Shown here: positions 29,371 through 45,150 of the stretch, piece after piece
Numbering within the stretch: the first letter of the stretch is position 1
Layout of the letters: every line of letters starts with the position of its first letter
Assembly (NCBI RefSeq): GCF_013141865.1
Contig: NZ_RCST01000001.1
Coordinates: forward strand, 992,001 to 1,056,000
Direction of reading: 5' to 3'
DNA: 64,000 nt
Origin: Methylomonas sp. ZR1
GTDB taxonomy: Bacteria; Pseudomonadota; Gammaproteobacteria; Methylococcales; Methylomonadaceae
Made by a program: the position numbers and the translations under genes
Notes under the pieces: generated by a model
What the model was told of the DNA's origin: nothing
Seen by the model: the letters and a program-made list of their open reading frames with translations, nothing else
The model's database searches: none

Positions 29371-30918
29371 CTAAGCCTGTGCGGTATTGGCCTTTTCATG
29401 CAACTGGATGTTGATCAACTTGATGGTCGCTAAAATCCCGGCAAACACCTGGTTGACGTGTACGCCGCGGGTTTTGCGCAGTTCGGTGCCGCAATCCCAG
29501 GTAATCACGCATTCGGTCAAAGCGCTGGTGTGGCCGCCTTTGGGGATGCGGATTTCGAAATCGGCCAGCGTCGGCAAGGTGTATTCGTAATGTTGCAATA
29601 CCTTGCCGATGGCGTCGATAAAGGCGTCGAAACCGCCGCTGCCGGCCCCGGTGGTCTGGTGTTTCTCGCCTTTGACATCCACGCGGATACTGACCGTAGA
29701 CGGCAAATCCAGACCGCTGTTGATCGAGCAAGCCAGTAATTTGATGTGCTGATAGCTCTTGCTTTCCAACACGTCGGCGATAATAAACGGTAGGTCGTCG
29801 GTGGTGATGGTTTGTTTGGAATCGCCGATACTGACGATGCGCGCCAGCACCTTCTTCTGGTCTTCTTCCGATAGATCCAGCTCCAGCTGCTCCAGATTTT
29901 TTTTCAAGGAGGCTTTGCCGCTCATTTTGCCCAAGGCGTAGCTGCGGATACGGGAAAAGCGTTCAGGGCCGAGCTTGGTTTTATACAAACCGCCTTTCTG
30001 GTCGCCATCGGCATGGATACCCGCAGTTTGGGTGAACACGTCGGCACCGACGATGGGCGCATTGGCGGCGACGCGCTTGCCGGAGAAGTTTTCCACCATT
30101 TCGCTGATGCGCACCAAATGGCTCTCGTCCACGGACAGTTCCATCGCCATTTTATCGCGCAGTACCACCGCTACTTCGGCGATGGAGGCGTTGCCGGCCC
30201 GTTCGCCCAGACAGTTGACGGTGCAATGCACCGCGCTGACGCCGGCCCGCACCGCCGCCATAACATTGGCGGTCGCCAAACCGTAATCATTGTGCGGATG
30301 GAAATCGAATTGCAGCGTCGGGTAGCGCTGGCACATATCGCTGAAGCTGGCGAAAACTTCGTCAGGCGCCATCACGCCCAAGGTATCGGGCAGCATGAAA
30401 TGGCTGATCGGGGCTTGTTGCAAGCGTTCCATCAAGCCGTAAACATAACCCCGGCTGTCTTTGTAGCCGTTGGACCAATCTTCCAGATAAACATTGATCT
30501 TCAAACCTTGTTCGTGGGCATAGGTGATGGTTTGCAGCACATCGGCGCTGTGTTGCTCCAGGGTTTTGCCGAGCTGTTCGCGGCAATGTTTCTCGCTGCC
30601 CTTGGCTAGTAGGTTGATGACGCTACCGCCGGTCGATTTGATCCAATCGACGCTGCGGGTATGATCGACAAAGCCCAAGACTTCAACGCGCTCGGCAAAA
30701 CCTTCGTGTCGTGCCCATTGATTGATCAGGCTGACGGCTTCTTTTTCGCCTTCCGAAACCCGCGCCGAAGCGACTTCTATGCGGTCAACGCGCAAAAACT
30801 GCAACAAAGCTTTGGCTATGCTGACTTTTTCCATCGGCGTAAACGCCACGCCTTGGGTTTGTTCGCCGTCACGCAGCGTGGTATCCATTAACTGGATGTG
30901 TCTTGAATGGGTAGACAT
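29371..30918 (-). CDS. 2-isopropylmalate/citramalate synthase family protein (LeuA-like)
   Basis: A 515-residue enzyme of the HMG-CoA-lyase-like family that condenses acetyl-CoA with a 2-oxo acid. The metal and substrate site LMDTTLRDGEQ (Asp12, Arg16) and the metal histidines in FHPHNDYG are present. A C-terminal LeuA-type regulatory domain spans about 385-510, with the glycine-rich GEKHQTTGAGSGGFDAF. The sequence is unlike standard E. coli LeuA, so it may use pyruvate (citramalate, giving isoleucine) or 2-oxoisovalerate (leucine). It is likely to act with the LeuB-like gene on the same strand. Confidence 0.82.
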   Translation of the reverse strand: MSTHSRHIQLMDTTLRDGEQTQGVAFTPMEKVSIAKALLQFLRVDRIEVASARVSEGEKEAVSLINQWARHEGFAERVEVLGFVDHTRSVDWIKSTGGSVINLLAKGSEKHCREQLGKTLEQHSADVLQTITYAHEQGLKINVYLEDWSNGYKDSRGYVYGLMERLQQAPISHFMLPDTLGVMAPDEVFASFSDMCQRYPTLQFDFHPHNDYGLATANVMAAVRAGVSAVHCTVNCLGERAGNASIAEVAVVLRDKMAMELSVDESHLVRISEMVENFSGKRVAANAPIVGADVFTQTAGIHADGDQKGGLYKTKLGPERFSRIRSYALGKMSGKASLKKNLEQLELDLSEEDQKKVLARIVSIGDSKQTITTDDLPFIIADVLESKSYQHIKLLACSINSGLDLPSTVSIRVDVKGEKHQTTGAGSGGFDAFIDAIGKVLQHYEYTLPTLADFEIRIPKGGHTSALTECVITWDCGTELRKTRGVHVNQVFAGILATIKLINIQLHEKANTAQA

Positions 30919-31297
30919 GATTTTTGTTGTTCTCGATGCGTCCTGTAGCGGTATCTGACCAAGCTAACTTCGTAGACAGGGTAGAGCGATAGCGACACCC
31001 CGTGCGTCTTTAAAAAATGACCTTTGTGCATAAGCTGGTCGCGCGGCTTATGAGCAATCTGATTGCTTATTCCGAAAGAGACTGAGCTATGCGTAACGTG
31101 CCATTTTCGCCTAAAACAGAATGAATTGGCAATTTGCGGCAAGTTATGGGGTCGTGAGAAGCGAAACCGGGAGGAAATTGGCTTGCATAATCTCCGCTGA
31201 TTTAAACGCATGCACTGTCGTGCTGCTTGATCATTTCGACTGGCGGAAGAGTCAGGTAACGCTGGCGCGCAACCTGAACTATTTGGCTGCAAACCTC
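30919..31297. other. Region upstream of the leuA-like gene
   Basis: This stretch lies between the leuA-like start and the terminator of the PEP-CTERM gene. It presumably holds the promoter of the leuA-like gene. I do not see a clear attenuator with leucine or isoleucine codons. Open frames on both strands lack ribosome binding sites and are not called. Confidence 0.5.
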
Positions 31298-31327
31298 AAA
31301 ACCGCCAGCATATTTAAGGGCTGGCGG
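31298..31327 (-). terminator. Intrinsic terminator of the PEP-CTERM gene
   Basis: A perfect 8-bp stem, CCGCCAGC (31302-31309) with GCTGGCGG (31320-31327), has a ten-base loop. Read on the minus strand it is followed at once by TTTT. It lies about 40 bases after the stop of the minus-strand gene ending at 31368. Confidence 0.6.
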
Positions 31328-31367
31328 CTTGGAGTATTTGCGAAGACAGACGTGCTTTAACTAAGAC

Positions 31368-32189
31368 TCAGACAGACCGCGTAAAGATTTCGCGCCGGCG
31401 GTAGCCGACAAAACCGAGCAGGCTTGAACCAAATAACCAAAATGCGGCGGGCACAGGCACGGGAGCTGCGACGACTGTCCGCGCAAATTTCTCTGAGCAA
31501 GTTGGATCGGGTTGCGCTGCACATGCGGTGCTGGCGATTTCCAGGCTACCGTCGGCGTTAACAAAATCCTCCAAAATCGGATCTCCGTTCCCATCCAGAA
31601 CCGGTGCACCGTTTTCATCTAATTTCGGAGCCCTAACCGTACCGTAAAAATATAGACTCAATCCCGCCGTATAAAACTCGTATTCGCCGACTGCGGCTGC
31701 GCCATTTTTCGGGGTAAATTCGCCAAGCAAATACTCAACGCTATCACCAGGGTTTAAGGCTATATTCTGCTTACTTAGGATACTGTTCGGGCTGGAGTCG
31801 AAATTGAATTCGTAAGGTCCGGAAGAGCAGCTATCGGCCAGAAATGTACCGGCACAACCAATAGAAGTACTCAAAGAAATACTATCCACGGTGATAAGTA
31901 CGCCATTGTCTATGTATCTGCTTTGGCTAGTGTTTGAATCATAGTAAGTAAAGCTGCTTGGGTAGTTGGCCGGATTGATGCCAAACGGCGGGTTACCGCC
32001 ACCTGTGCTGGAAAAAACCAAGGGATCCGATGTGGCGTCCAAACTTAGTTTCAACCAAATCGGAATGTTATCGGTCGCAACGACAGTGCCCGTGGGTTGA
32101 ACAAACGACAGACTACCGCTGTAGGCCGCCTGAGCATTGGGTAGCCAAGCCAACGCCAATGCGGAAACAACAAATCGTAATTTAGACAT
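31368..32189 (-). CDS. PEP-CTERM sorting domain-containing secreted protein
   Basis: A 273-residue exported protein. The N-terminal signal peptide (MSKLRFVVSALALAWLPNAQA) is followed by a beta-rich body. The C-terminus has the PEP-CTERM signal: VPVPAAFWLFGSSLLGFVGY and then an arginine cluster. Such proteins are processed by an exosortase and placed at the cell surface or in exopolysaccharide. The start is ATG 32189; a TTG 15 bases upstream is part of the GGAG ribosome binding site. No exosortase gene is in the window. The specific function is unknown. Confidence 0.88.
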   Translation of the reverse strand: MSKLRFVVSALALAWLPNAQAAYSGSLSFVQPTGTVVATDNIPIWLKLSLDATSDPLVFSSTGGGNPPFGINPANYPSSFTYYDSNTSQSRYIDNGVLITVDSISLSTSIGCAGTFLADSCSSGPYEFNFDSSPNSILSKQNIALNPGDSVEYLLGEFTPKNGAAAVGEYEFYTAGLSLYFYGTVRAPKLDENGAPVLDGNGDPILEDFVNADGSLEIASTACAAQPDPTCSEKFARTVVAAPVPVPAAFWLFGSSLLGFVGYRRREIFTRSV

Positions 32190-32786
32190 AACGTATTTCT
32201 CCAATTTAAAAGCGCTTGAAAATCATTTTCCCAAGAGGTCTAAACCTTTAGTTTGATGACCAATTCAACCCGTCAATATCGTCGCTCTCATGCAGCAGTC
32301 AGTCCAGCGGTTCAAGTAGATTAGCGCCGCGGCAGGCGGCAACGAAGAATGCCGGGAATTTAAGGGCCAAGCCAGTATTCTAGGCAGAAAGCAGACTACA
32401 CGGGTCAGATCATAACAAAATATTGTCGGGTTTATATGACAATAACGCTGTATCGAATTAGCGGCAGCATGTCCGCCACATTCATCGAAATCCGGTCACG
32501 CATGGCTGGGTTAGAACGCTTAAAGATTGGCCCCATTCGCGTTTTCATCGTTATGCGAAACAAGGCGTGTATCCTGAAACTTGGAGTGTTGACTGCGATT
32601 TATCGAGGTTAACGGCTAGAAGATAACGCGAAGGATGCCAGCATTTAGGGAAGTGGGTGGCTCGGTATCCGTAGCTCGTTTATCTGATTATAATTTCAGA
32701 GCAAAAATACGAAATCCACACCCTCCTTTCTGCCCGCTGTAATCAAGCACCAGCGCGTATTTATTAAACAAACCGGGACGCTATTT
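32190..32786. other. Long intergenic region holding a transposase remnant
   Basis: Between the PEP-CTERM gene and the methyltransferase there are about 600 bases. The part 32462-32626 is the decayed tail of a REP-associated transposase. The rest shows no gene and no convincing REP palindrome. Confidence 0.6.
32462..32626 (+). pseudogene. C-terminal remnant of a REP-associated tyrosine transposase (RayT/Y1)
   Basis: The frame reads RQHVRHIHRNPVTHGWVRT and then LKDWPHSRFHRYAKQGVYP, followed by ETW and a TAA stop. This is the conserved C-terminal pattern of RayT-type Y1 transposases (H..YIH.NPVKHG.V.....DWP.SSFHRYV..G.YP..W). An in-frame TAG just upstream and the lack of the N-terminal HUH nuclease part show it is a remnant. 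It marks past transposase activity next to the accessory region. Confidence 0.7.
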
Positions 32787-33545
32787 ATGAATTTGAATGA
32801 AAATGCCGTGATGCCTTCTTTAACCGCACAGAATCCGTTTACCGGCCGTATCGGTGAAGAGTACGATTTTCTCGGTATGATGTGTCCCAATGTCGTGGTG
32901 CTGACGCAAAAGCTCGGTGAGACAGTCGCCGCATGGCATCCCGGCAATAGTCTACAGGGGCTGGAGATCGGCTGCGGCACAGGATTGAGCACGCTGTCCT
33001 TGCTTACTCAGCGCGAGGACCTGCATCTGCGCGCTTTCGATGCCTCAGCGGCAATGCTTACGCAGGCGCGCGCGAATTTGGCGGAGTATGTCGACAACGG
33101 TCGTGTCGAATTCATCGAGAGCGATGCACTAGCTTTTTTACAGCAGCAACCAGACGCCAGCGTTGAGGTTGTAGCCTCGAATTATGCCATTCACAATTTT
33201 CTGAATGACTATCGGGATCAAGTCTTTGCCGAAATCTGGCGCGTGCTTAAACCGGGTGGATTGTTCGCAAACGGCGACCGCTTCGCTATCGATGATCCCG
33301 CGCGGCATTTGGCTTCCACGCAAGCCGACATTCGCCATTGGTTCAAGACCTTTGGGGAACTGCAGCGTTACGATCTTTTGGAAGACTGGGTGGTACATTT
33401 GTTGAGCGACGAATCACCGGACCACATCATGCATGTGCCAGCCGTCATATCCACCCTGCAATCTCTGGGATTCAGCGATGTGCATTCGCCTTATCGTGAA
33501 GGCGTGGACATGTTGATGACCGCGATAAAGCCGAAATTGGCTTAA
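32787..33545 (+). CDS. Class I SAM-dependent methyltransferase
   Basis: A 252-residue soluble methyltransferase. Motif I is LEIGCGTGLSTLSLL (about 59-73), the acidic residue of motif II is in LRAFDASAAML, and motif IV/post-motif regions ASNYAIHNFL and WRVLKPGGLFANGDR follow. The substrate cannot be told from sequence; small molecule or cofactor methylation is likely. It is separated from the downstream conflict-type operon by about 175 bases, so I do not count it as part of it. Confidence 0.82.
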   Translation: MNLNENAVMPSLTAQNPFTGRIGEEYDFLGMMCPNVVVLTQKLGETVAAWHPGNSLQGLEIGCGTGLSTLSLLTQREDLHLRAFDASAAMLTQARANLAEYVDNGRVEFIESDALAFLQQQPDASVEVVASNYAIHNFLNDYRDQVFAEIWRVLKPGGLFANGDRFAIDDPARHLASTQADIRHWFKTFGELQRYDLLEDWVVHLLSDESPDHIMHVPAVISTLQSLGFSDVHSPYREGVDMLMTAIKPKLA

Positions 33546-33720
33546 TTTTTTTATCGGTCATCGTTCCGGCGCTGCGTGTCGCTGGAGCACGGGAAAGATA
33601 ACTGTTGGGGAGATTGAGTTCAAAGACAATTCAGAGCGCTCAGAAAGGCGCCCGATAACGAATTGGTAAAACACAGTCGGTTACGCCCAACACTTTAAAT
33701 AAATGACGAAGGGAGCGGCT

Positions 33721-34056
33721 ATGAACGAGAACGACAAGCTGAATTTGGCGGAAGTGATTCAAGAGCTGAGACAAAGTTTGGTGACTGCTTCCGCTCATGG
33801 CGAAGCGGAAACCATTCGCTTTAACGTCAATAGCGTAGAAGTGGAATTGCAAATGGTGGTCGAAAAGACAGGAAGTTTAACGGGTAAGGGGAAATTCAAT
33901 TTCTGGGTGCTGGGTGACGTTGGCGCCGAGGCGTCAGCCACTTACAAAAATTCAGCAACACACAAGATCAAATTTAATTTACAACCGGTGGATGTGAAGA
34001 ACCCGGACCCGCAGACGGGTGAGCCGAGTAAACTATTGTTGTCCGGTGATGAATAA
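33721..34056 (+). CDS. Trypsin-co-occurring domain protein (Trypco2-like)
   Basis: A small 111-residue protein. Its N-terminal helix LAEVIQELRQSLVTASAHGE is followed by a beta-rich half with IRFNVNSVEVELQMVVE and GKGKFNFWVL. It ends with the THKIKFNLQPV strand. This matches the Trypco2 domain, described as co-occurring with trypsin-like proteases in bacterial conflict systems, where it may tether or regulate the protease. AGGGAG sits just before ATG 33721; an ATG 18 bases upstream is less well placed. The protease gene follows after 25 bases. Confidence 0.75.
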   Translation: MNENDKLNLAEVIQELRQSLVTASAHGEAETIRFNVNSVEVELQMVVEKTGSLTGKGKFNFWVLGDVGAEASATYKNSATHKIKFNLQPVDVKNPDPQTGEPSKLLLSGDE

Positions 34057-34081
34057 CCGAGGCACTTAGCGGGGATTAACT

Positions 34082-35533
34082 GTGGATACCAAGCTGATTG
34101 CAAAGATTCTGCCGACGAAAAAGGATGGCAAGCGCGCTATTGGCACAGGTTATCCCATCGCTGAGGGTTTGGTATTGACAGCACGCCACGTCGTTGTTTT
34201 TGATGAGCGTGATAAGGCGGTGCCTATTGTGATTGAATGGCCGGATTCAAAGCATTCGGATACGAATGTCACCGAATTTGTTTGGGTCAGCGATGAACAC
34301 GACATGGCCATTCTCAGGTGTCAAACCCCGCCAAACATGTCGCTTTCCTCAGGCCTATTGGCGTCACGCGATCCAAAAAGCCATGAACAGTGGAGTGGTT
34401 ATGGCTATCCGGCTATCGGCAAGGAAGCTGAATCGGGATTGCGCGAAAAAATACCGGTGATGGGGGAGTTCTTTCCACCGAATGTCGCCACGCCTAAACT
34501 CACCATTTCCTGCAAAAGTGATGCTTTGGAGAAAGCCGGTTGGTGCGGATTATCGGGGGCGCCGGTATTTCACGGGCCGCAACTATTTGCGATTATCACT
34601 GCGACGCCCCAAAAGCGTGATGAATGTTTCACTGCTATTTCCATACCCTGGTTAATTCGAAATGACCAAGAATTCCAAGAAATAACCGGTATACAAGGCC
34701 AGATTCAAAAACATCAAAAATTCGTTGCCGAGCAGAAACGACAAATTAGCGAGGTATTGTCAAAAATGACCACGCAGGACGCTCTGTTCAAGCAAATTGC
34801 CGGTCAATTAAATTTGAATGTCGCGAATATTACCAATCAAAAATTAACAGACAAATTGCTGGAAGCCTTTAAGCAGGATGATTTAGCGGTTTTAGATCTG
34901 TTGCTGCGCGCCGGTGCCGATGCGTTCAAACAAGATTCCGGCGAGTCGATACGCCGGAATCTCAGACAGCTATTTTGTTTGTTTGCGGGCTTGATGGCCC
35001 CGGAATGCCAAGCAATCAGGCAGGCATTGATTAACTTGCCGGTGCGCACCGCGATGGCTGCTGAATTGTCGCTGGCGGCGCTTTACGATACCAATCCCGA
35101 GTTCGTGAGAAATGACGGCAAAGTGCATGGCAGGCATACGATCAATGCGGACGTGTTTACCCGCGAAACCGGTTGGGGCCAGACAGAGTTCATAAAAGAC
35201 GCCACCGAAACCATTTACAAGGTTATTCACAAAGCGCCGCCGCCCGAGCCGCTGGACGCCTTTGAGCTTGAGGCGTTGAATTCCACGATTAAACAGCGGC
35301 AAAACCGCTCGTTAAACCAATTGCATCGCCTGGAATTAAATCGGCGGGATGCCAATTTGACTAACAACCCTTTGCTTGATGAAGCCAATTGTCAGGCTTT
35401 AAATGCTGCAGACTGCCTCCCTGATTTACCCATCGTGCACTATGGCGAAGCCGCAGCGGAAAAAGAAGCCAAGCTGAGTGCCAAAATCACAGAGCTCTTC
35501 AACATACTCGAAACCAGCCAATCAAGCACATGA
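34082..35533 (+). CDS. Trypsin-like serine protease with C-terminal helical region
   Basis: A 483-residue protein without a signal peptide, so a cytoplasmic trypsin-fold protease. The catalytic triad is clear: His36 in LTARHVV, Asp74 in DEHDMAILR and Ser158 in WCGLSGAPV. The C-terminal part (about 200-480) is mainly helical, with a coiled-coil-like start (about 205-235) and a charged end. In NTP-dependent conflict systems such proteases act as the cleavage switch that activates effectors. Translation starts at GTG 34082 after GGGGA. It overlaps the MoxR gene by ATGA. Confidence 0.85.
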   Translation: MDTKLIAKILPTKKDGKRAIGTGYPIAEGLVLTARHVVVFDERDKAVPIVIEWPDSKHSDTNVTEFVWVSDEHDMAILRCQTPPNMSLSSGLLASRDPKSHEQWSGYGYPAIGKEAESGLREKIPVMGEFFPPNVATPKLTISCKSDALEKAGWCGLSGAPVFHGPQLFAIITATPQKRDECFTAISIPWLIRNDQEFQEITGIQGQIQKHQKFVAEQKRQISEVLSKMTTQDALFKQIAGQLNLNVANITNQKLTDKLLEAFKQDDLAVLDLLLRAGADAFKQDSGESIRRNLRQLFCLFAGLMAPECQAIRQALINLPVRTAMAAELSLAALYDTNPEFVRNDGKVHGRHTINADVFTRETGWGQTEFIKDATETIYKVIHKAPPPEPLDAFELEALNSTIKQRQNRSLNQLHRLELNRRDANLTNNPLLDEANCQALNAADCLPDLPIVHYGEAAAEKEAKLSAKITELFNILETSQSST

Positions 35534-36516
35534 CAGCAACCACCCTCAAACATTTTCAAGCCGATAGTGTTATCGATTACGCGGACTGTGGTTCCTGGCG
35601 GCAAGGCCGTTACTTTTTGGATAAAGCCAGCGCTTATGCCCTGGAAATGGCCTTGGCGACCCGCCGCCCTCTGTTGGTAAAAGGTGATCCAGGGTTGGGC
35701 AAGAGCTATCTGGCGCGGGCAGCTGCTGCCAAGCTCAAGCGCAAATTCATCGCCGAAGTCGTCAACATCAACACCGAAGGTCAGGATTTGCTCTGGCGTT
35801 ACGATCCGGTCGCACGCCTAAACGACGCTCACGCCGGCATCAAAGATGATGACAAACTCAACCCCAAGCATTATCTCAATCCCGGTGTGTTGTGGTGGGC
35901 CTTTGGCTGGGATAGTGCGGCCCGGCATTACAACGATGTGTGCCGTCATAAAGTCTATCGTCCGCAGATTTCCGACGACGGGGAACTGGACAACGGCATT
36001 GTTTTGCTAATCGACGAAATCGACAAAGCCGAGCCTTCTTTGCCCAACGCACTATTAGAAGTGCTGGGTAACGGCGGCTTTGACGTACCGCTGTTGGGAG
36101 AAACCATCGGCAAGACACTGCAGACGGCAGACAAACAAGCTGCGCCGCCGCTAGTGATCATCACCAGCAACGACGAGCGTGAATTGCCGGCGGCGTTTAT
36201 TCGGCGCTGTCTGGTGCTGCATTTGGCGGTGGATGATAAAAACCTTGAAACCTGGTTCTTGGAGCGCGCCAAGGTGCATTTCAATGATAACCAGTGCAGC
36301 GAAGCCATCAAACGCCTGGCGCTACAACAACTAATCGCCGACCGGCAGGAGGCTGAGCGCCACGGCACCATCAAGGCCGGTTTGGCGGAGTATCTGGATT
36401 TATTGGCGGCGCTGGATGAAATGACCGATTCCTCGCTGCAAGGCCAAGAACGGGATGCCTATCAGCAATGTTTGCTGGCTGAGATCCAGCACTTTGTGTT
36501 GCGCAAAGCGTTGTAA
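35530..36516 (+). CDS. MoxR-type AAA+ ATPase
   Basis: A 328-residue AAA+ ATPase with Walker A GDPGLGKS (52-59), Walker B IVLLIDEID (about 157-165), sensor 1 IITSNDERELP and arginine-finger region FIRRC. The DLLWRYDPVARLNDAH segment is typical of the MoxR-like ATPases found in conflict systems, not of methanol dehydrogenase MoxR. It probably remodels or gates the neighbouring protease and the FGE-fold proteins. The ATG overlaps the protease stop, and its TAA shares one base with the next ATG. Confidence 0.9.
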   Translation: MTATTLKHFQADSVIDYADCGSWRQGRYFLDKASAYALEMALATRRPLLVKGDPGLGKSYLARAAAAKLKRKFIAEVVNINTEGQDLLWRYDPVARLNDAHAGIKDDDKLNPKHYLNPGVLWWAFGWDSAARHYNDVCRHKVYRPQISDDGELDNGIVLLIDEIDKAEPSLPNALLEVLGNGGFDVPLLGETIGKTLQTADKQAAPPLVIITSNDERELPAAFIRRCLVLHLAVDDKNLETWFLERAKVHFNDNQCSEAIKRLALQQLIADRQEAERHGTIKAGLAEYLDLLAALDEMTDSSLQGQERDAYQQCLLAEIQHFVLRKAL

Positions 36517-39470
36517 TGTCGATTCATACTCAGACCAGTCGCGGCGACTTACTGCGCTGGCTGCAGCGCTGTCAAACCCATGACGAAAAATGCCTGAGCG
36601 CTACGATATTGGGTTACGAATGGTGTGCGCCAGTCACGATAGGCCATGAAATTGATTATAAAGTGCCCCGTCCGGAGCCTCCCAAAATCGATCCAAATCC
36701 TGCTCCTACGCCGGCTAAATTAGCGCTGAAACGCCCGCAAGCATTGTTCTACGCCCTTGCATCTCAGGAGCATTATGCCGATCCGCAACAGCTCGGCGAC
36801 AGCCTGCCGCCCGTGCTTCAAGGCGTTGAGCCGCTCTCCGATGCCGATTTGCAGCCCTTTGCCAGCGGAGAACCGCTGCCGCACCAAGCCATCGTCCCGG
36901 AAGCCCGCATGCGCGATTTTTTGCGGCAATCCATAAGCCATAGCTTGGGGCAGCGACTGGATATACCGCAGTTGGTCAAACGTATCGCCCGCCTGCAAAC
37001 CTTGTATCATCTGCCGCGCAAGCCACGAGTCGTGCCGGCCGGGAGGGTTTATGTCGTCCTCGACCTAAACAAACGCTTGCTGCCGTTCTGGTTGGACGCC
37101 CATCGCTTGTGTGAAAGTATCGTCCGTCAGTATGGGTTGAACGGCCTGGAAATTCGCGTGATTGACGACGACCCACAAGGCGAATATTGGGATTGGTTTG
37201 ATCAACAGCAACGGCTTAAGCAGTGGCAAGCGCTCACAGCGCAAAGTGTGGTGTTCATCGTCAGCGACCTGGGGCAATTGGCTGAACAACACAGCCCGAT
37301 ACGCTCGCGGTGGGACAGTTTTTTCCGGCAACTAAGCCGTAAAAACACCGCACCGGTCGTGCTAGCACCAGTATCGGCCGTCCAGCAACAGCCCGAGCGC
37401 CTAAAAACCATCCGCCAAGTGTTGTGGCACAAACACGGCAAGCTCAAACCGGAAAAGATCGATCCGGATATCAAGGCCCACGCTGAGCATGTCCGCAAAG
37501 TCTTGGCATTGTTATCCGTCGCCGTACACGTCGAACCTGAATTGCTGCGCGCCTTGTTGCGCTGTTTACCCGCTGAACAAGCCGATAGCGGCATCGAAGC
37601 GGCGGTGTATCAGCATGCCGATATGCAATGGGGTTATACCGCCATCAGCATGCGCCCGGAAAAACGGGCCGAGTATCAGGCCGAATTTAAACAGCTGGAC
37701 GCTGGCTTGCAGTATCAAGTCTTGAGTTTGCTCAAACGCCAGCATATCGGCCAGTTTCCGGCGATTTGGGCGGAGGAAATCATCAACGCCCTGCCGCTGG
37801 TGTCGTTCCCGCTCGAACAACTGGCCGATGTCCAACAGGCGGAGGCTTTTATGCAACGTTTCGCCAAAACCCTGCAGGGTGCCCAGTCCGACAGCGGCAT
37901 GACGCAATTTGCCCGGCGGCATTTAAACCGGTTAAGCGGTGAGGCGATTCGTTTGAATAATCACCGCTATACCAGTGCGCTTTACGGTTTAGCGTATCGC
38001 GAGCAACTGCGGGCTGGCGCTCCGTTGCCTGCGGAATATGATGCCGCCATCGTCCACGAGCTGACTCGTGAACGCACTGAATTAAATCGCTATGGCATCT
38101 GGCAAGTTGGTGAAGCCTTGAGTATCGCTTATGCCGACACCAGGCCCGTAGCGATAGGTGGCGCGAAACTGGCCGAATTAGACGCAATCCACGACAGTAT
38201 CATGCTGTTCAAAAGTTGGGTAGAAAATGGCCGGATTCGAGTGGATAAGAAATTGCTTCGCTTGCCGGACCATGGCGAGTCGTGCATCGTCGGTCAGTTG
38301 GATGGGCAGATCCTGGATTTTGATACCGGATTGGCGAGCCTGACGTTTGCAGCATTTACAAAGCCCAGTTGGGCTGACAGTATCGTCCGTAATTCAGAAG
38401 GACTCTCGGCTAATTTACGCTTTGCAGGCAAAGATTATCGCTTTGGGTTACAAGCAGGGGAGGGTTTCAACCCTTACATCGAGTTACAACGGTTTTCTGA
38501 GGCCGAACCCTTGTCGGAAAAATGGGGCGAGCAATTTGTCAATACCAGCCTGTTAAATCAGGAAGATAGAAGGATGCTGCTTACGCAAGTGAGATGGGAA
38601 CCGGAAAAGCCTAGATCCTGGCCTGTTGGGGTAGACCAATACGGTCTCTACGCCGACCTCACCGTCAACCAGGTCACCCAGCGCTTCCGCTGGATAGAGC
38701 CGGGCAGTTTTATGATGGGTTCTGGGCGCGGTTCTATAAATTACGCCAGCGAAGCCGCGCACGCCGTGACCTTGACAAAGGGTTTTTGGTTGGCTGATTC
38801 CGCTGTTACGCAAGCCTTTTGGCTTGCGGTGATGGGGGGCGCCAATCCCAGTTACTTTCAAGACAACCAAAACAACCCAGTTGAACAGGTGAGTTGGGAC
38901 GATGCGCAAAGTTTTATTGCCAGCCTAAACGCTTTACAACCCAGTCTGGGGGCGCGTTTGCCCAGCGAAGCGGAATGGGAACTGGCCTGTCGAGCCGGCA
39001 CTACGGCGCAGTTTGCTTTTGGCGACTACATCACGCCAAGCCAGGTCAACTACGATGGACGCTCCCAGTATGTTGGGGGTGAAGAGGGGCTATATCGAGG
39101 CAAAACCGTCCCGGTGAAATCCCTACCTGCAAATCCTTGGGGCCTCTACGAAATGCACGGCAATCTATGGGAATGGTGTGAGGACGTTTGGCAGTATGAC
39201 CTTGGCTCGGTTAATACGGTTGATCCCCTGGTAGAGTCGAATCAGGATTCAGACGGTCGCCGTGTGCAGCGCGGCGGCTCTTGGTGTGACCCCGATAGCC
39301 ATGGACGCTCTGCCGCCCGTGCTGGAGGTCGACCCGGTGATCGTGACTTAGACGTCGGTTTCCGGCTTGCTATAGGTCATGCTGAGTTAAAGCCAGGGCC
39401 GGTAAACGGCGAGGTAAAATCTGCCAATGGCGGTGATTCATCGAAGCCGGGCAGCGGCGTTGCGGAGTAA
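36516..39470 (+). CDS. Large conflict-system protein: degenerate vWA-like region plus C-terminal FGE/SUMF1 domain
   Basis: A 984-residue protein. Residues 170-260 alternate strands and helices, with VYVVLDLNKRLLPFW and VVFIVSDLGQLAE in the manner of a von Willebrand A fold, but the MIDAS motif is degenerate. Residues about 330-710 are mostly helical. Residues about 715-955 are an FGE/SUMF1 domain: FRWIEPGSFMMGS, VSWDDAQSFI, RLPSEAEWELACRAGT, EMHGNLWEW and RGGSW. The catalytic cysteines of true FGE are absent. Residues 923-952 resemble a diversity-generating retroelement variable region. An unusual low-complexity tail of about 30 residues follows. Its ATG overlaps moxR by one base. Confidence 0.75.
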   Translation: MSIHTQTSRGDLLRWLQRCQTHDEKCLSATILGYEWCAPVTIGHEIDYKVPRPEPPKIDPNPAPTPAKLALKRPQALFYALASQEHYADPQQLGDSLPPVLQGVEPLSDADLQPFASGEPLPHQAIVPEARMRDFLRQSISHSLGQRLDIPQLVKRIARLQTLYHLPRKPRVVPAGRVYVVLDLNKRLLPFWLDAHRLCESIVRQYGLNGLEIRVIDDDPQGEYWDWFDQQQRLKQWQALTAQSVVFIVSDLGQLAEQHSPIRSRWDSFFRQLSRKNTAPVVLAPVSAVQQQPERLKTIRQVLWHKHGKLKPEKIDPDIKAHAEHVRKVLALLSVAVHVEPELLRALLRCLPAEQADSGIEAAVYQHADMQWGYTAISMRPEKRAEYQAEFKQLDAGLQYQVLSLLKRQHIGQFPAIWAEEIINALPLVSFPLEQLADVQQAEAFMQRFAKTLQGAQSDSGMTQFARRHLNRLSGEAIRLNNHRYTSALYGLAYREQLRAGAPLPAEYDAAIVHELTRERTELNRYGIWQVGEALSIAYADTRPVAIGGAKLAELDAIHDSIMLFKSWVENGRIRVDKKLLRLPDHGESCIVGQLDGQILDFDTGLASLTFAAFTKPSWADSIVRNSEGLSANLRFAGKDYRFGLQAGEGFNPYIELQRFSEAEPLSEKWGEQFVNTSLLNQEDRRMLLTQVRWEPEKPRSWPVGVDQYGLYADLTVNQVTQRFRWIEPGSFMMGSGRGSINYASEAAHAVTLTKGFWLADSAVTQAFWLAVMGGANPSYFQDNQNNPVEQVSWDDAQSFIASLNALQPSLGARLPSEAEWELACRAGTTAQFAFGDYITPSQVNYDGRSQYVGGEEGLYRGKTVPVKSLPANPWGLYEMHGNLWEWCEDVWQYDLGSVNTVDPLVESNQDSDGRRVQRGGSWCDPDSHGRSAARAGGRPGDRDLDVGFRLAIGHAELKPGPVNGEVKSANGGDSSKPGSGVAE
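39282..39371 (+). other. Candidate retroelement variable region (VR-like) in the FGE-fold C-terminus
   Basis: These codons follow RGGS and read WCDPDSHGRSAAR then AGGRPGDRDLDVGFRLA. The fixed positions W, R-S-A-x-R, R-P, R and [LIV]-G-F-R-L-A, with three-residue variable blocks between, match the layout of FGE-type diversity-generating retroelement targets, where template AAC/AAT codons give the variable residues. No reverse transcriptase or template repeat is in the window, so any mutagenesis would act from elsewhere. Confidence 0.45.
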
Positions 39471-39484
39471 CCAGATGAAAGCTT

Positions 39485-40297
39485 ATGAATTACAGTAACC
39501 TATTGTCTCCGCTAGTTTTTCCCTGTCCCTGGGCCTCTGAATGGGGTGAGGATACTCAGGGTTTGTGGCAAACGTTAAACTACCGCGGCGTGCGGCAGGT
39601 GTTTCGCTGGATCGAACCGAGCACTTTCATGATGGGTTCGCCGGATAGTGAATTGGGCCGCTACGACTACGAAGTTCGCCGAACGGAAGAGGTTGAATCG
39701 GGTTATTGGTTGGCCGACACTGCGGTCACTCAGGCACTATGGGTGGAAATTCGTACCGGCGAGAGTCCTAGCCGCCACCATGATAATTTGGTGTACCCGG
39801 TACACGGTGTCAGTTGGGATGACGCCCAGGCCTTTATTGCCGAGTTGAACCAGAGGGTTCCCGGCTTTAATGCTCGATTACCCAAAGAACTGGAGTGGGA
39901 ATACGCATGCCGGGCAGGCACCGACACGGCGTTTAGTTTCGGCGACAGTATTGATGCCAATCTGGTGAATTTCAACGGTAACTACCCCTACGCAAACGCG
40001 CCGAAGTGTGAATTTCGCGGTAAACCCGTGCCGGTAAAGAGTTTGCCGGCGAATGCCTGGGGGCTTTACGAGATGCACGGCAATGTTTGGGAGTGGTGTC
40101 AGGATGCTTGGCGAGAGGGTTTCAGTGCTGGAAGCTCAGTTGATATGCCATTGTCTTGGGACTCTCCAAATGAAAGAATCGCCCGCGGCGGCTCCTGGGA
40201 TGCCGATGCGACCTTCGCCCGTTCCGCCTACCGATACCACTTCGATAAATCCCAACGCAGTGAGTTCTTTGGATTTCGTTTGCTGGTTGATGGCTAG
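39485..40297 (+). CDS. FGE/SUMF1-fold protein (non-catalytic)
   Basis: A 270-residue protein made almost wholly of one FGE/SUMF1 domain: FRWIEPSTFMMGSPDSE, GYWLADTAVTQALW, VSWDDAQAFIAEL, RLPKELEWEYACRAGT, EMHGNVWEWCQD and RGGSW at about 235-238. The 30-residue end after RGGS has the same length as that of the preceding gene but different residues (RSAYRYHF, FFGFRLL). The FGE catalytic cysteine pair is missing, so it is unlikely to oxidise cysteine to formylglycine. It is paralogous to the C-terminus of its neighbour and lies 14 bases after it. Role: probable binding or effector module. Confidence 0.8.
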   Translation: MNYSNLLSPLVFPCPWASEWGEDTQGLWQTLNYRGVRQVFRWIEPSTFMMGSPDSELGRYDYEVRRTEEVESGYWLADTAVTQALWVEIRTGESPSRHHDNLVYPVHGVSWDDAQAFIAELNQRVPGFNARLPKELEWEYACRAGTDTAFSFGDSIDANLVNFNGNYPYANAPKCEFRGKPVPVKSLPANAWGLYEMHGNVWEWCQDAWREGFSAGSSVDMPLSWDSPNERIARGGSWDADATFARSAYRYHFDKSQRSEFFGFRLLVDG

Positions 40298-40529
40298 CTT
40301 CAATTCCGGGGTTTCCGGGCAGGGATTTACCTGAGATATTCCAAAGATCAATGCTTTGCTTGGAAATAAAGCGGTACTGCAAGCAAGCGACAGTAGCGAT
40401 TGGCGGATCTCGCTGTTTGGTTAGGATGACCCGGCTTAACTCAATGCGTCAGATAAGCGAAATACCTTAACCGGATTCTCCAGCTATATTTCGTGCTACG
40501 AATATTGCCTGACAAGGAAGGGCGTTAGT

Positions 40530-41726
40530 ATGACGAGTCTAAATATTGCGGGATTGCTTCACCACGGCGTATGGCGCTGCATTGGCTATCTGGCATTCAG
40601 TCGAATAAGAGTCATCGGCAAAGAGCGGCTAACGTTAGTCGGCCCTGTCGTGTTTGTAGCCACTCACCGCAATGGCGCACTCGATGCCGCACCGTATTCG
40701 CTTGCCGTTCCTTTGGTCATGCCGATGGTATCGGCGCAGCTGCAGCGTTTACCGTTGGGCAGATTTTTGTTTCGTGGTATTGCGGTAGCCCGTGCCAAGG
40801 ATAAGGCTCGCGGCATTAAGGCCGATAACGGCAAAGCCTTGGCAGAATGCATAGAGTTACTGAAAGTGGGTGGACAACTCTTCATCATGCCGGAAGGCAC
40901 CAGTTCGCTCGGTTGCCGACATTTACCGTTTAATCGTGGTGCCGCGCGTATCGTAGCCCAAGCCATGGCTGCTGGAGTCAGGCCCATTATCCAGCCTTTG
41001 GCTGTTCATTACGAAGACCCTACTCACTGGCAAAGCCGTGTTGAGGTATTAATAGGTGAACCCATAATTCCGCAAAACGCCGACGAGATAGCGATACACC
41101 AGTCGATTACCGATGGTCTGGAGGCCGTTGGGGCTAATTTTGTTGATACCGAAGCTCAGCAAACGGCAGAAAAATTGGCTTATGCCCGCATTTTAAGTAC
41201 CGATCTTTCTTACGCTGAAAACTTAAAAATATTTGAGGGCCAGATTGCGCCTGCTTTATCCGAGTCGCTAAGGCAGTTGGAGACAGTTGCCAAGGATAAA
41301 GGTCTTTTTCTTCATCAAGGCCTACCTTTAATGCCGCTCCGCTTGTGGCAGCGGGATTTAGTCAAGTGGTTACTGCTGGCGCCTGTCATCGCTTGTTTCA
41401 GCATATTGAATTTTCCGGTACTGGCCGCTGGGCATATCGCTAGTCAACTTCTGCCGGACGAGCCGAATGTTATTGCCTTTTGGCGCATGGTCGTCGGTGT
41501 GCCGGTAGGATTATTTTGGTTCGTGACCGTCTGCGTGGGTTTGTTTTTATGTGCCGGGCCAAGTTGGTGTGTTCTTTACGGCGCGATCAGTACCGTTGGC
41601 CTATTGGCGTGGTACCGATTCCGTAAATTGACGGTAGCACTCGGTAACGCGGTTTTTCATCCTGAGGCGAGGGCGGTATTGGTAACAGCCTATCGGAATT
41701 TGGCGGAGCGCAAAGCGCATGAATAA
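40530..41726 (+). CDS. Membrane-associated 1-acylglycerol-3-phosphate-type acyltransferase
   Basis: A 398-residue PlsC-family acyltransferase. Motif I is THRNGALDA (His46, Asp52), a variant with one more residue than the classic H-x4-D. The acceptor motif is MPEGTSSLG (Glu122). The C-terminal third has two or three membrane helices (about 275-300 and 315-355), anchoring it at the inner membrane. AAGGAAGGG precedes the ATG. Its end overlaps the PAP2 gene by eight bases. Transfer of acyl chains to a glycerolipid-like acceptor is likely, but the acceptor is unknown. Confidence 0.85.
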   Translation: MTSLNIAGLLHHGVWRCIGYLAFSRIRVIGKERLTLVGPVVFVATHRNGALDAAPYSLAVPLVMPMVSAQLQRLPLGRFLFRGIAVARAKDKARGIKADNGKALAECIELLKVGGQLFIMPEGTSSLGCRHLPFNRGAARIVAQAMAAGVRPIIQPLAVHYEDPTHWQSRVEVLIGEPIIPQNADEIAIHQSITDGLEAVGANFVDTEAQQTAEKLAYARILSTDLSYAENLKIFEGQIAPALSESLRQLETVAKDKGLFLHQGLPLMPLRLWQRDLVKWLLLAPVIACFSILNFPVLAAGHIASQLLPDEPNVIAFWRMVVGVPVGLFWFVTVCVGLFLCAGPSWCVLYGAISTVGLLAWYRFRKLTVALGNAVFHPEARAVLVTAYRNLAERKAHE

Positions 41727-42588
41727 ACTTCTCGACCCGCCCTTACGCTATTTCAGTATCTATCTGGGCGCCGTTTCAACCATGGAAATCGCGCATCTGA
41801 CGGTTTGGAGTCTATTGTTTTGTCCGATGCTGGCCGGCATGGCCGGATTGGCGCGCAAGTATTCCAGGCAACGCAGTTGGGGGCTATTGGCGGCCATTTG
41901 CGTCAGCTTGGCCGTGGGTATGAATGTGTCGTATCAAGCCATGGCCGGGGCTATCCCCGCTGTCCGGAGCGTACGCTTCGATGCCCAGCTATTGGCATTG
42001 GATCGGCTATTGATAGGGGAAACGCCGTCGGTATGGTTGGAACGATGGATTAGCCCACCGCTCACCGAACTAATGAGCGCTTGCTACTTGTTATTGATGC
42101 CATTATTGCTGGTCAGCCTGCTGCGTTATTTTTTCCGGCGCCGGGAATTGCTCGGGGAATTTTACACCGGTCTATTCGCGGTTTACGGCTTGGGCTTCCT
42201 CGGTTATCTGCTGGTGCCGGCTGCCGGGCCTTGGCTGGCCTATCCGGAGTTGTTCAACGTCAAATTGAACGGCGGCGCGGTCACGGCATTTAATCAAGCG
42301 ATGGTTGAGCAAGGCAGCAATAAAGTGGATGTCTGGCCGAGTCTGCACGTGGCCGTGACGCTCTATATCTTGGGATTTGCCGGACGGCATCATCGCCTTG
42401 AGTTCTGGGTTTTGTTGTTGCCGATATTGGGTTTATGGATCGCTACTTTTTATTTGCGTTATCACTATTTTGTCGATGTCCTCAGCGGCTTGGCGTTGGC
42501 AGGCTTTGGTTTATACGAAGCTCGCCGTCATGCCGCTCACCCCGCCATCAACCCCAACAAGAAGGATACCTATGCCAACGCTGTTTGA
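41719..42588 (+). CDS. PAP2-family membrane phosphatase/phosphotransferase
   Basis: A 289-residue integral membrane protein with about six helices. The PAP2 active-site elements are VWPSLHVAV (C2) and RYHYFVDVLSG (C3, with catalytic histidine and aspartate). The first motif is not obvious, as in the inositol-phosphorylceramide-synthase-like branch, which transfers headgroups between lipids. It overlaps the acyltransferase upstream by eight bases and the PEP-synthase-like gene downstream by seventeen. Lipid phosphate removal or headgroup exchange is the inferred role. Confidence 0.83.
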   Translation: MNKLLDPPLRYFSIYLGAVSTMEIAHLTVWSLLFCPMLAGMAGLARKYSRQRSWGLLAAICVSLAVGMNVSYQAMAGAIPAVRSVRFDAQLLALDRLLIGETPSVWLERWISPPLTELMSACYLLLMPLLLVSLLRYFFRRRELLGEFYTGLFAVYGLGFLGYLLVPAAGPWLAYPELFNVKLNGGAVTAFNQAMVEQGSNKVDVWPSLHVAVTLYILGFAGRHHRLEFWVLLLPILGLWIATFYLRYHYFVDVLSGLALAGFGLYEARRHAAHPAINPNKKDTYANAV

Positions 42589-45079
42589 TTTTCATCATCC
42601 GTCTGCTCTGGATTCGGCCCTATCCGGCGGTAAGGGCGCCAACCTTGCCCGCTTGACGCAGGCTGGGTTTGCCGTTCCGTCAGGCTTTGTGTTGCCGCCG
42701 GAGGGTTATTACTCGTTCATTGAGCAATACGATGCATTGCCGGATTTGCTTCGGAATTTGCCTATAGACGAACCCCTGGCCTTGGAACAGGCGTGCACAC
42801 GTATATGCGAGCAGTTGACCCAGCTACCGGTGCCAGAAAGCTTGAAGCAGGCAATTGCGGAGATGTTGGCTGAGTTTCCGGGCGACACGGCATTCTCCGT
42901 GCGTAGCTCCGCCACTGCCGAGGACTTGGGCGGCGCCGCATTCGCCGGGCAGCACGAAACGTATCTGAATTGCATCGGCATCGACGACATTGTTTCGCGC
43001 ATCCGGGATTGTTGGGTATCGCTGTGGAGTGCCCGCGCCATTGCTTACCGCTTGCAGGCCGGCATCGGCTTGTCGAACACTGCGATGGCGGTGGTGGTGC
43101 AAAAAATGGCCTTCAATCGGGTCGCCGGCGTGGGGTTTTGCATCAATCCGGTTACCGGCGATCCTGCACAACAGTCGGTCGATGCCAATTATGGTTTGGG
43201 TGAATCGGTGGTGGGCGGTGAACATCAGGTTGATCATTGGTTGCTGGATAAGTCGTCCGGGCGAGTGTTGGATGCGGTTTTAGCCCATAAATCCTCATGC
43301 ATCGTCGCCGACCGCACCGGTACGCGCAGCGAGAACTTGTCAGATGATCAAGCTAATTTACCTTGTCTCAGCGAACCTGAGTTGGTTGAGTTATCCGATT
43401 TGATGCGGCGTGTCGAAAAGTTTTACGGTTATCCGCAGGACATAGAATGGGGTTTTGAGGGTGAACAGTTGTGGCTGTTGCAAGCGCGACCGATTACCCG
43501 CATCCCGCCGCGCTGGACCCGTGACGAATCCGCCGAGCGATTTCCCTCGGTGATTACGCCGCTGGCTTGGGACTTGGTGGAGGAGGGTTTTCACCAATCG
43601 CTGTCGCATTCTTTCGAATTGATGGGCTTGCCGCCGTTTCACGGCAAGTGGTTCGCCTTGTTCGATAATTATGTATACGGCAATCAGAATGCCGTCGAGG
43701 TTTATGCCGAAGGCACCGCAAATTCCTTAAACGTGCGTTCAGTTGCCGAACTGCTGTCTGCTTTACCGACACTGCGCAAACGCTATGCCTGGGTGCAGGA
43801 ATTACCGATGGCGTGGTCGCGCGATTTGGATCGCTATTTACTCGGCCTCGGCGAATTAATGGCCGAGCCGCTGACAGGACGCTCTATTCCCGAGTTGTGG
43901 AATTTTGTACTGCGGGTGAAGCAGCTAGGTGCGGAATATTTTCTGCCGAATATTGCCATTTCCATTACGCAGCGCACCCTTTACAAGCTGGTGTACAGCA
44001 TCGTTGGGGCGGCGGTTGGCGAAGCGGATGCGCCGACGACCTTTGATAGCTTGCTGGCGTACTGCGAAACCAAAACGGGTTTCGTCAACAAGGAACTTTA
44101 CCGGCTGGCAAGGCGGATAGCCGAATGCCCCAAACTCGTGCAGGCGTTGCGCACCCAAACTGGTCAGCAATTTCTGGCTTCCGGCGGATTCATACAGGAA
44201 GCAGATATTGCAGCCGCTTTCCAGCGTTTTTTACAGGATCATGGGCATCGGGAAGTGGAGTTTGATCCCTATCATCCGACCTGGTTGGAAGCGCCATGGC
44301 TGGTGATTGAAAATCTGAAAATGATGTTGGACTCGACCCTGGAAGACCCTGCCGAAAAAGAACGTACTCTGAAAATCCGGATGTTGGAAACCGAACGGCA
44401 ATTGATCGGCGGGTTGCCGGAGGATTTGCGGTTTCCTGTTCAGGAGCTATTGCGCTTGGCGCGGGTTTATACCGCATTGGACGACATCGAACATTACCAG
44501 ACTACACGGCTGACATTGCCGTTCCGCAAGGGTTTACTGGCCTTGGGTGTAGCCTTGCAGGCCAGAGACATAGTTACGGAAGCGATGGATGTATTCTTTG
44601 CCAGAGCCGAACAGCTCTCGGAAACAATCCGCCTTAACGACGCCGAGTCGTGGCGTTGTTTGGCGGATAGCATAGAAAGGGAAAAACAGGCTTATCAAAA
44701 CCATAGGCAGCATTCACCGGAATGGGAGTTGGGTAAGTCACAAGCCTATTCCGCTAAAGACGGGGATTTTGTTGGTTTACCCGGTAGCCCCGGCGTTGCC
44801 AGCGGCGTGGTTTTTAAGGTGTTGTCGCAGGACGATTTCGCCGATTTTCCCGCCAACGCGGTACTGGTAGCGCGTACCACCAACCCGGCCTGGACGCCTT
44901 TATTTTATAAGGCGGCGGCCGTGATCACCGAAAGCGGCGGACCTTTGTCGCATGGTGCAGTGACTGCAAGGGAAGTGGGTTTACCTGCGGTAATGAGCGT
45001 CAGAGGTGTGCTGGATGCATTGACGAACGGCGACAAAGTGACAGTCGATGGTATTGCGGGCCGAGTAAGGCTAGATTGA
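42572..45079 (+). CDS. PEP-synthase/rifampin-phosphotransferase-like dikinase
   Basis: An 835-residue enzyme with the domain order of rifampin phosphotransferase: N-terminal ATP-grasp domain (KGANLARLTQAGFAVPSG, FSVRSSATAEDL, ending LLQARPITR at about residue 310), a middle domain of about 420 residues, and a C-terminal swivelling phosphohistidine domain (GGPLSHGAVTAREVGLPAV, His794). It lacks the PEP/pyruvate TIM barrel, so it is not PpsA. Expected chemistry: ATP plus acceptor to AMP, phosphate and phospho-acceptor. The start at 42572 follows AAGGA; a frame open from 42377 is an artefact of the PAP2 overlap. The acceptor is unknown. Confidence 0.8.
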   Translation: MPTLFDFHHPSALDSALSGGKGANLARLTQAGFAVPSGFVLPPEGYYSFIEQYDALPDLLRNLPIDEPLALEQACTRICEQLTQLPVPESLKQAIAEMLAEFPGDTAFSVRSSATAEDLGGAAFAGQHETYLNCIGIDDIVSRIRDCWVSLWSARAIAYRLQAGIGLSNTAMAVVVQKMAFNRVAGVGFCINPVTGDPAQQSVDANYGLGESVVGGEHQVDHWLLDKSSGRVLDAVLAHKSSCIVADRTGTRSENLSDDQANLPCLSEPELVELSDLMRRVEKFYGYPQDIEWGFEGEQLWLLQARPITRIPPRWTRDESAERFPSVITPLAWDLVEEGFHQSLSHSFELMGLPPFHGKWFALFDNYVYGNQNAVEVYAEGTANSLNVRSVAELLSALPTLRKRYAWVQELPMAWSRDLDRYLLGLGELMAEPLTGRSIPELWNFVLRVKQLGAEYFLPNIAISITQRTLYKLVYSIVGAAVGEADAPTTFDSLLAYCETKTGFVNKELYRLARRIAECPKLVQALRTQTGQQFLASGGFIQEADIAAAFQRFLQDHGHREVEFDPYHPTWLEAPWLVIENLKMMLDSTLEDPAEKERTLKIRMLETERQLIGGLPEDLRFPVQELLRLARVYTALDDIEHYQTTRLTLPFRKGLLALGVALQARDIVTEAMDVFFARAEQLSETIRLNDAESWRCLADSIEREKQAYQNHRQHSPEWELGKSQAYSAKDGDFVGLPGSPGVASGVVFKVLSQDDFADFPANAVLVARTTNPAWTPLFYKAAAVITESGGPLSHGAVTAREVGLPAVMSVRGVLDALTNGDKVTVDGIAGRVRLD

Positions 45080-45150
45080 CGCAAATCTTCGTAAGCAGGT
45101 CGGTCGGTCCACTTGGCAAAAATTCGGGACACCACCGGTTTTTGTCATAA

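Follow-up and report, generated by a model that had tools for sequence, protein, structure and literature searches.

A chromosomal Methylomonas operon of paired C-type-lectin sensors, a MoxR ATPase and a trypsin-like protease, probably a former target of a diversity-generating retroelement

The closest described counterparts of the operon considered here are loci targeted by diversity-generating retroelements (DGRs), which, in the naming used here, rewrite the variable region (VR) of a target gene from a template repeat (TR). Dore et al. 2024 describe DGR clade 5A loci in which a MoxR gene lies beside a long target with an unknown N-terminus and a second target that consists only of a C-type-lectin (CLec) domain, and these loci often neighbour Trypco and trypsin-like genes (PMC10907252). 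Also related are the VMAP ternary systems (Kaur et al. 2020, PMC7159879), which have in common with our operon MoxR and possibly a vWA-like partner, the pairing of Trypco with trypsin, and FGS ends (equivalent to FGE and CLec); there is, however, no VMAP match in our case, and the vWA-like region is degenerate and weakly supported. Leftover DGR targets have been reported from Treponema denticola (PMC4891356) and, as cyanobacterial all3226 (PMC7517822), in genomes or loci without a reverse transcriptase (RT); the present case differs in that the entire effector operon has been retained, that relatives show graded steps of RT loss, and that blocks of sensor sequence have been exchanged.

The window, a stretch of 64,000 nucleotides from the chromosome of Methylomonas sp. 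ZR1, contains five genes in the order Trypco2, trypsin-like protease, MoxR-type AAA+ ATPase, long protein of 984 residues with a C-terminal FGE domain (called CLec below) and CLec protein of 270 residues. The features are as follows.

33703..34056, + strand: Trypco2 protein, 117 residues, with an alternative ATG at 33721 (PF19631, E 3.7e-21)
34082..35533, + strand: trypsin-like serine protease with a GTG start; domain at about residues 16-195, C-terminal region without known family (Trypsin_2 and PADLOC matches, triad)
35530..36516, + strand: MoxR-type AAA+ ATPase (AAA_5, E 9.9e-13; Walker A and B)
36516..39470, + strand: long sensor, 984 residues; N-terminal region without Pfam family, C-terminal FGE/CLec (FGE-sulfatase, residues 726-952, E 5.1e-43)
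37047..37373, + strand: degenerate stretch of the long sensor, suggestive of a vWA domain (weak VWA_CoxE similarity)
38045..39983, no strand: block replaced relative to Methylomonas sp. LW13 (divergence inside against outside)
39260..39379, + strand: putative former DGR VR of the long sensor (adenine-biased differences from relatives' TRs)
39471..39484, no strand: 14-base gap where RT-bearing relatives hold an HRDC gene, RT and TR
39485..40297, + strand: short CLec-only sensor, 270 residues (FGE-sulfatase, E 5.4e-41)
40178..40294, + strand: frozen VR of the short sensor, residues 232-270 (amino acid identity and dN/dS across three genomes)

The junctions are, in order, a 25-base gap, an ATGA overlap, a TAATG overlap, which places MoxR immediately upstream of the long target gene, and a 14-base gap; coordinates and junctions agree with the preliminary description of five closely packed genes on one strand. 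Its expectation that the genes travel together is likewise borne out by the neighbourhood comparison, in which the same five occur in identical order at seven loci (the window, L006, L007, L162, L189, L192 and L193), more often than chance would give. Counts of promoter-like (3) and terminator-like (11) sequences are unremarkable against shuffles (5.1 and 9.0). In the plasmid and phage collections 85 and 13 records matched the long protein in part, none of them over 80% of its length. The view that this composition is an untested novel variant cannot be kept: the clade 5A loci of PMC10907252 are alike in having MoxR upstream of a long CLec gene, a short CLec-only gene and Trypco and trypsin neighbours. 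Unlike those loci, the window has no RT, TR or HRDC accessory gene, its VRs are eroded or frozen, and its sensor block has been replaced between strains of one species. The link to DGRs, their loss and the strain difference in the sensor block had been overlooked previously.

The Trypco2 protein is probably the partner of the protease. The latter matches Trypsin_2 (E 2.8e-4) and Trypsin (E 9.1e-4) in Pfam, both below the curated cut-off, and its protease part gives PADLOC matches to LmuA (E 1.1e-11) and to Avs1b (E 1.3e-9). The likeness to Avs1b, the protease of Avs1 (AVAST type 1), is also seen with NCBIfam (E 6.8e-10), but it is limited to residues 16-172/191 of our protease, set against a model of 1931/1924 positions, and its 36.7 bits lie far under the curated NCBIfam cut-off of 1500. 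The catalytic triad, previously described as intact, can be read in the motifs ARH36V, HD74MA and GLS158GA; H36 and D74 are invariant in all five aligned rows (window counted), and the Ser158 column is clean in four of the five, the fifth being gapped there in that alignment. Among solved structures the protease profile finds weak glutamyl endopeptidase matches at most (best E 0.0078), and the structure predicted from three aligned rows (mean pLDDT 37.0) was too poor to use. The C-terminal region has no Pfam match under E 0.02, and its homology to the third components of the TIR and SEFIR relatives is not demonstrable. A single C-terminal docking domain common to all effectors was considered and dropped (trypsin against the others, E 0.012 or worse), the sole related-looking pair in that comparison being SEFIR and one TIR protein (E 7.9e-5). 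In Pfam, which includes VMAP models, no VMAP match appears below an E limit of 10 for residues 201-483 of the protease or for residues 1-695 of the long protein, in keeping with the earlier remark that a separate VMAP is missing. The identity of the ATPase as MoxR-type is likewise upheld by its AAA_5 match, by midasin as its best match among solved structures, and by Walker A (GDPGLGKS, residue 52) and Walker B (residue 158).

It might be supposed from the missing DGR machinery and the eroded VR signature that the operon is a functionless, decaying leftover. This is quite improbable, given that all five reading frames are open, that the triad and Walker motifs are intact, and that over three genomes Trypco2, protease and MoxR have dN/dS values of 0.07-0.21 and the short VR has values of 0-0.10.

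Methylomonas sp. LW13 belongs to the same species, and its copy of the operon differs from that of the window chiefly in a block of about 1.9 kb that covers the sensor domains, where divergence is 0.374 (n=1860) against 0.055 outside (n=5256). The edges are sharp in a 250-base divergence profile, and the limits obtained for three pairs of genomes differ (38045-39983, 38720-40185 and 38045-39365), as expected under separate replacements. Such a pattern indicates replacement of sensor sequence within the species; no donor of the block was found. The alternative is very fast evolution of the sensor domains under selection, without recombination; sensors exposed to phages can change quickly, and between the window and LW13 the long protein has a dN/dS of 0.35, above the 0.18 of the protease and the 0.08 of MoxR. 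We regard this as quite improbable, however, because besides the sharp edges and the differing limits dS is also raised: in the long sensor it rises from 0.16 in residues 1-470 to 1.33 in residues 701-900, or is saturated in the C-terminal half, against 0.13 in the protease and 0.18 in MoxR (the small Trypco2 gene gives 0.45).

That the long protein ends in an FGE domain and that a second, stand-alone FGE protein follows was correctly recognized beforehand, and these ends are likely to be sensors. The FGE-sulfatase matches, well above cut-off in Pfam, and the NCBIfam matches to PvdO, EgtB and GldK, all far under their curated cut-offs, would also suit enzymes, formylglycine-generating or related iron or copper ones, in an operon for protein modification or maturation. 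This is very unlikely. At the positions of the two cysteines of solved FGE, its active-site pair, cysteines are lacking in the short protein and no pair is present in the long one; there is no sulfatase gene among the five; and among solved structures the short protein comes closest to TvpA, a DGR variable protein (2y3c, E 6.8e-19), while the long protein matches FGE enzymes (E 6e-19) slightly better than TvpA (E 2.5e-15). The N-terminal region of the long sensor is common to related loci and finds nothing convincing among solved structures (best E 0.023); the structure predicted for the long protein from four aligned rows (mean pLDDT 34.7) was too poor to use. The degenerate vWA-like region proposed for it is no more than suggestive: the hhalign score against two VWA_CoxE proteins (22.6) exceeds all 150 column shuffles (maximum 21.9), but the probability is 1.2% and E is 0.044, and VWA_CoxE is matched (E 0.007) by one of eight long-protein members, the window's own having no match.

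Both FGE domains appear, by descent, to be targets of a DGR that is now gone. Measured against proxy TRs from relatives, the long VR of the window is changed at 18 of the 26 A sites of the G010 TR and at 27 of its 94 remaining sites; for the G076 TR the counts are 21 of 27 and 28 of 84 (Fisher p 9.7e-5). The third-base signature is gone from the window's VRs (long 4/8, expected 3.2, P 0.41; short 5/8, P 0.19), so the argument for a DGR past is built on the relatives and on this position bias, part of which may come from surface codons under loose constraint. The long VR of the L162 locus shows no significant adenine bias (16/27 against 34/84, p 0.12). The VRs compared were those found by pattern, plus four that it missed (L006 short, L163 short and both of L168). 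The short VR is frozen, with 100% amino acid identity to LW13 and 97% to M. fluvii, dS of 0.15-0.22 and dN of 0-0.017 over three genome pairs.

Some RT is carried by 26 of 37 Methylomonas genomes. The assembly of our strain, two contigs with a listed completeness of 100%, has no match to Pfam RVT_1 anywhere, no DGR-like RT was found in the genome, and neither a second VR-like DNA copy nor a VR-matching TR was found in the genome or in window positions 28001-46000. A working TR is expected to match its VRs at nearly all non-A sites; a much-diverged remnant could escape such DNA searches, since the G076 TR as query missed the window's VRs even at E 10. Trans-acting DGRs are reported for Thiohalocapsa (PMC10907252), but that one acts from elsewhere on these sensors and still mutates them is highly unlikely with neither an RVT_1 match nor TR-like DNA found in the genome, the third-base signature eroded and the short VR frozen in three genomes.

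Among 25 paired-CLec loci of Methylomonas and its family, RT is kept in six and absent from 19, six of which have a TR, an HRDC fragment or a transposase at the RT site. It should be noted that the family loci were hand-picked from the stronger matches and that the count covers these rather than weaker FGE pairs; L195 and L008 are one locus, entered once, and it leaves out loci that are truncated or have a single sensor (L167, L170, L172, L199, L200, L202-L205), L198 (RT present, contig stopping before the short gene), the divergent L174-L176, and L009 along with further distant FGE loci. L174 has a bAvd-type accessory gene and a TR. Downstream of their short gene, L165 and L169, counted as clean, carry a partial repeat that shows no adenine bias. 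In RT-bearing relatives an HRDC gene, a DGR RT (motif GLPIGSLTSQ) and a TR sit between the two CLec genes, and their DGRs are working-looking from the mismatches between TR and VR: template A accounts for 13 of 14 (long) and 15 of 16 (short) of these in G010 and for 17 of 19 and 18 of 20 in G015. L192 combines this arrangement with all five genes (Trypco2, trypsin, MoxR, long, HRDC, RT, TR, short). At L171 a truncated HRDC gene (E 4.3e-7) and the TR remain without RT, 19 of 21 and 15 of 18 mismatches lying on template A, and the closest full-length relative found outside the genus, L201, retains its TR. On a MoxR tree of 24 rows, RT state requires at least five changes. This series, from RT-bearing through TR-only to RT-free loci, suggests that in this family the mutator is commonly lost while the sensor operon stays.

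Taken together, we favour, with a probability of roughly 0.7, a chromosomal conflict operon of DGR targets, MoxR and protease that lost its DGR and would now serve as a sensor-MoxR-protease defence of fixed specificity. A function as a phage alarm is probable; no experiment tying such an operon to phage defence was found in the literature searched. The two CLec faces may bind a ligand borne by an invader, and the long protein could relay this binding to MoxR through its vWA-like N-terminal part. ATP-driven remodelling would then free the protease, restrained until that point by Trypco2, to cut cell proteins, leading to growth arrest or cell death. After loss of the DGR, the specificity of the short VR would be maintained by selection, and specificity might be altered by imported sensor sequence comprising the long CLec and the N-terminal two thirds of the short one.

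More tentatively, and possible rather than probable, there may be a two-stage immune repertoire, in which lineages with a DGR generate the binding faces of CLec domains, and lineages without RT have a fixed receptor that they alter by taking over entire sensor blocks from such DGR-bearing relatives by homologous recombination. The long VR of LW13, in whose genome no DGR-like RT was found, has a fresh DGR signature (third base C in 8/8 counted variable codons, 3.15 expected, P 2.5e-4) and would be such an import.

This operon bears on the cellular role of DGR-diversified CLec proteins. Lacking RT and having a single fixed pair of sensors, it should lend itself to testing more readily than a hypermutating operon: its ligand specificity is single, its protease and ATPase motifs are intact, and the copy in a same-species strain differs mainly in the sensor block. 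The replaced block also represents another route to altering a sensor.

The operon consists of five genes, all on the + strand and separated by overlaps or by gaps of 14–25 bases, for a Trypco2 protein, a trypsin-like protease, a MoxR ATPase, and a long (984 aa) and a short (270 aa) sensor of the C-type-lectin/FGE (CLec) fold. Trypco2, AAA_5 and two FGE-sulfatase domains score far above the Pfam cut-offs; the protease falls below the curated cut-off for trypsin, although the assignment is upheld by the PADLOC protease models and the catalytic triad. The preliminary description had treated the five genes as a complete operon; they are found in identical order in seven loci (the window, L006 of M. 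fluvii, L007 of Methylomonas LW13, L162, L189, L192 and L193). Nearby, at 31368-32204 (-), is an ORF whose product looks secreted; it carries a VPVPAAFWLFGSSLLGFVGYRRR stretch at the C-terminus, which by eye we take to be PEP-CTERM-like.

The composition of the operon is already known in kind from clade 5A of the diversity-generating retroelements (DGRs), which pair a reverse transcriptase (RT) and a template repeat (TR) with a variable region (VR) in the target gene. We consider it about 70% probable that the DGR has gone from this genome and has left behind a chromosomal conflict operon of the DGR-target/MoxR/protease kind. DGR loss with leftover target genes has precedents in Treponema denticola (PMC4891356) and in cyanobacterial all3226 (PMC7517822). 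In the open-licence literature we found no report of a MoxR–protease operon of this type that has lost its DGR, of a series of DGR losses in this family (Methylomonas and relatives), of a frozen short VR, or of sensor-block replacement between strains.

Both sensors probably descend from DGR targets. Amongst solved structures, the top match of the short sensor is TvpA, a DGR variable protein of Treponema denticola (E 6.8e-19); the long sensor matches FGE enzymes best (E 6e-19), with TvpA at E 2.5e-15. The structure-match alignments show that both lack the active-site cysteine pair of the FGE enzyme. In two Methylomonas loci (L160 and L161), the stretch from the long CLec gene to the short one contains an HRDC-domain gene (PF00570, E 3.1e-18 and 8.4e-17, respectively), an RT with the motif GLPIGSLTSQ, and a TR. 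At these loci, VR/TR mismatches in genome G010 fall on 13/26 A sites and 1/94 other sites (long) and on 15/26 and 1/94 (short); the counts for G015 are 17/27 and 2/100 (long) and 18/26 and 2/100 (short). The ZR1 genome has a third FGE-domain gene at G000:C1:1851622-1852182 (L003, L173), an ORF of 360 aa with 37% identity to the short CLec.

The whole ZR1 assembly (5.18 Mb, two contigs) has no match to RVT_1 (Pfam). An RT of some kind occurs in 26 of 37 Methylomonas genomes; when all 37 were searched with the DGR RT of G015, two matches were strong, at 785 bits (itself) and 285, the next being at 82 bits. Of the weaker RTs, those in the subset of loci scanned have mostly group II-intron- or retron-like motifs. 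Across the family, DGR-like RTs at E 1e-24 are present in 6/151 genomes; the long protein finds matches at E 1e-15 in 67/151, many of them other kinds of FGE protein. A DNA search of the ZR1 genome found no second copy of the VRs. The TR of G076 gave nothing convincing there (best E 0.165), and a much-diverged TR remnant could escape detection, since this query also fails to recover the window's own VRs.

Twenty-five paired-CLec loci, 13 from the genus search and 12 from the family search, are readable between both sensors. The RT is present in six (L160, L161, L192, L194, L196 and L197) and absent from 19, six of which have other sequence at its position; these are listed with L163, a locus of genome G026.

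Sequence found between the two sensors
L171: truncated HRDC (E 4.3e-7) and TR, no RT
L187: HRDC fragment, 78 residues at 40%, no Pfam match
L188: HRDC-like fragment by eye and IS200-like transposase, below cut-off (E 0.0011)
L190, L191: DDE transposase (E 5e-15)
L201 (G076): TR and plasmid-type Rep3 gene (E 1.2e-34)
L163: sigma-54 domain fused to the short CLec

Mismatches of the L171 TR with its two VRs lie on a template A in 19/21 and 15/18 cases. The Rep3 gene beside the TR of L201 might reflect an assembly join. No DGR parts were found between the sensors of the remaining 13 of the 19 RT-less loci, the window included. In the MoxR tree, which comprises 28 rows and has four open forks and some joined long branches, RT-bearing loci pair with RT-less ones (L198 with L165; L192 with L189), and RT state changes at least five times over the 24 rows scored. 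The tree alone is directionless; it is the TR and HRDC remnants that show loss.

Three further observations concern these relatives. At L174:9803-10288, in a divergent locus that includes Trypco1, trypsin and MoxR, lies an accessory gene resembling bAvd (E 7e-7, below cut-off); the locus also has a TR, with no RT seen up to the contig end. L201 and L202, on two contigs of G076, have trypsin–MoxR–long stretches with near-equal match statistics, through either duplication or assembly redundancy. At L163:10887-12497, a sigma-54 interaction AAA+ domain (PF00158, E 3.3e-61) forms a single protein with the second CLec sensor, which suggests transcription switching under CLec control.

With the L201 TR as proxy template (Fisher test, A sites against others), the long VR differs at 21/27 A and 28/84 other sites in the window (p 9.7e-5), 22/27 and 21/84 in M. 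fluvii (p 3.8e-7), 14/27 and 16/84 in LW13 (p 0.0021), and 16/27 and 34/84 in L162, where there is no clear bias (p 0.12); the window's short VR differs at 20/27 and 40/84 (p 0.025). AAC codons altered by a DGR are expected to retain C in third place, as is the case for 8/8 counted in LW13 (expected 3.15, P 2.5e-4) and 7/8 in M. fluvii (P 0.01). The window's counts are 4/8 for the long VR (P 0.41) and 5/8 for the short (P 0.19), and thus its own DGR signature has faded. Residues 232-270, which make up the short VR, share 97-100% identity across three genomes (dS 0.15-0.22, dN 0-0.017); for residues 1-150 of the short sensor, the window shares 62-70% with each of the other two.

LW13 belongs to the same species as the window strain by genome-level assignment. 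In 250-base bins over 31250-45000, the two are 90-99% identical except for 83% at 33750, 86% at 40250, and 50-69% in the bins 38000-39750. A two-breakpoint fit over 34100-41400 places a block over the sensor domains at 38045-39983, with a divergence of 0.374 inside and 0.055 outside. DGR action or protein-level selection alone would be insufficient to explain this, because synonymous change is also raised within the block and its span is far above that of the 120-base VR. An internal donor is unlikely, the single further FGE homologue in the genome being 37% identical, and the searches made found no donor of the replaced block. The limits for the other two genome pairs, 38720-40185 and 38045-39365, differ from these, which would be consistent with two or more replacement events. 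The Trypco2 gene (33703-34056) has a dS of 0.447 against both LW13 and M. fluvii, compared with 0.159 between those two, and so it may also have been exchanged.

In other loci, the place of the protease beside the same type of MoxR/CLec pair is taken by a TIR protein (L161, L165), a SEFIR protein (L163, L164) or a phosphoesterase-TIR protein (L008), and effector type changes at least five times on the MoxR tree (20 rows). This variety, together with the changes on the tree, supports a predicted switch-and-sensor core with a plug-in, exchangeable effector, which resembles systems that Kaur et al. 2020 (PMC7159879) put forward. A sensor role of DGR targets is a proposal of Dore et al. (PMC10907252). 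In the most likely mode of action of the operon described here, the CLec faces would bind a ligand of the invader and the long protein would signal to MoxR, which would then remodel the complex and free the Trypco2-bound protease; cleavage of cell proteins would stop the infection, probably at a cost to the cell.
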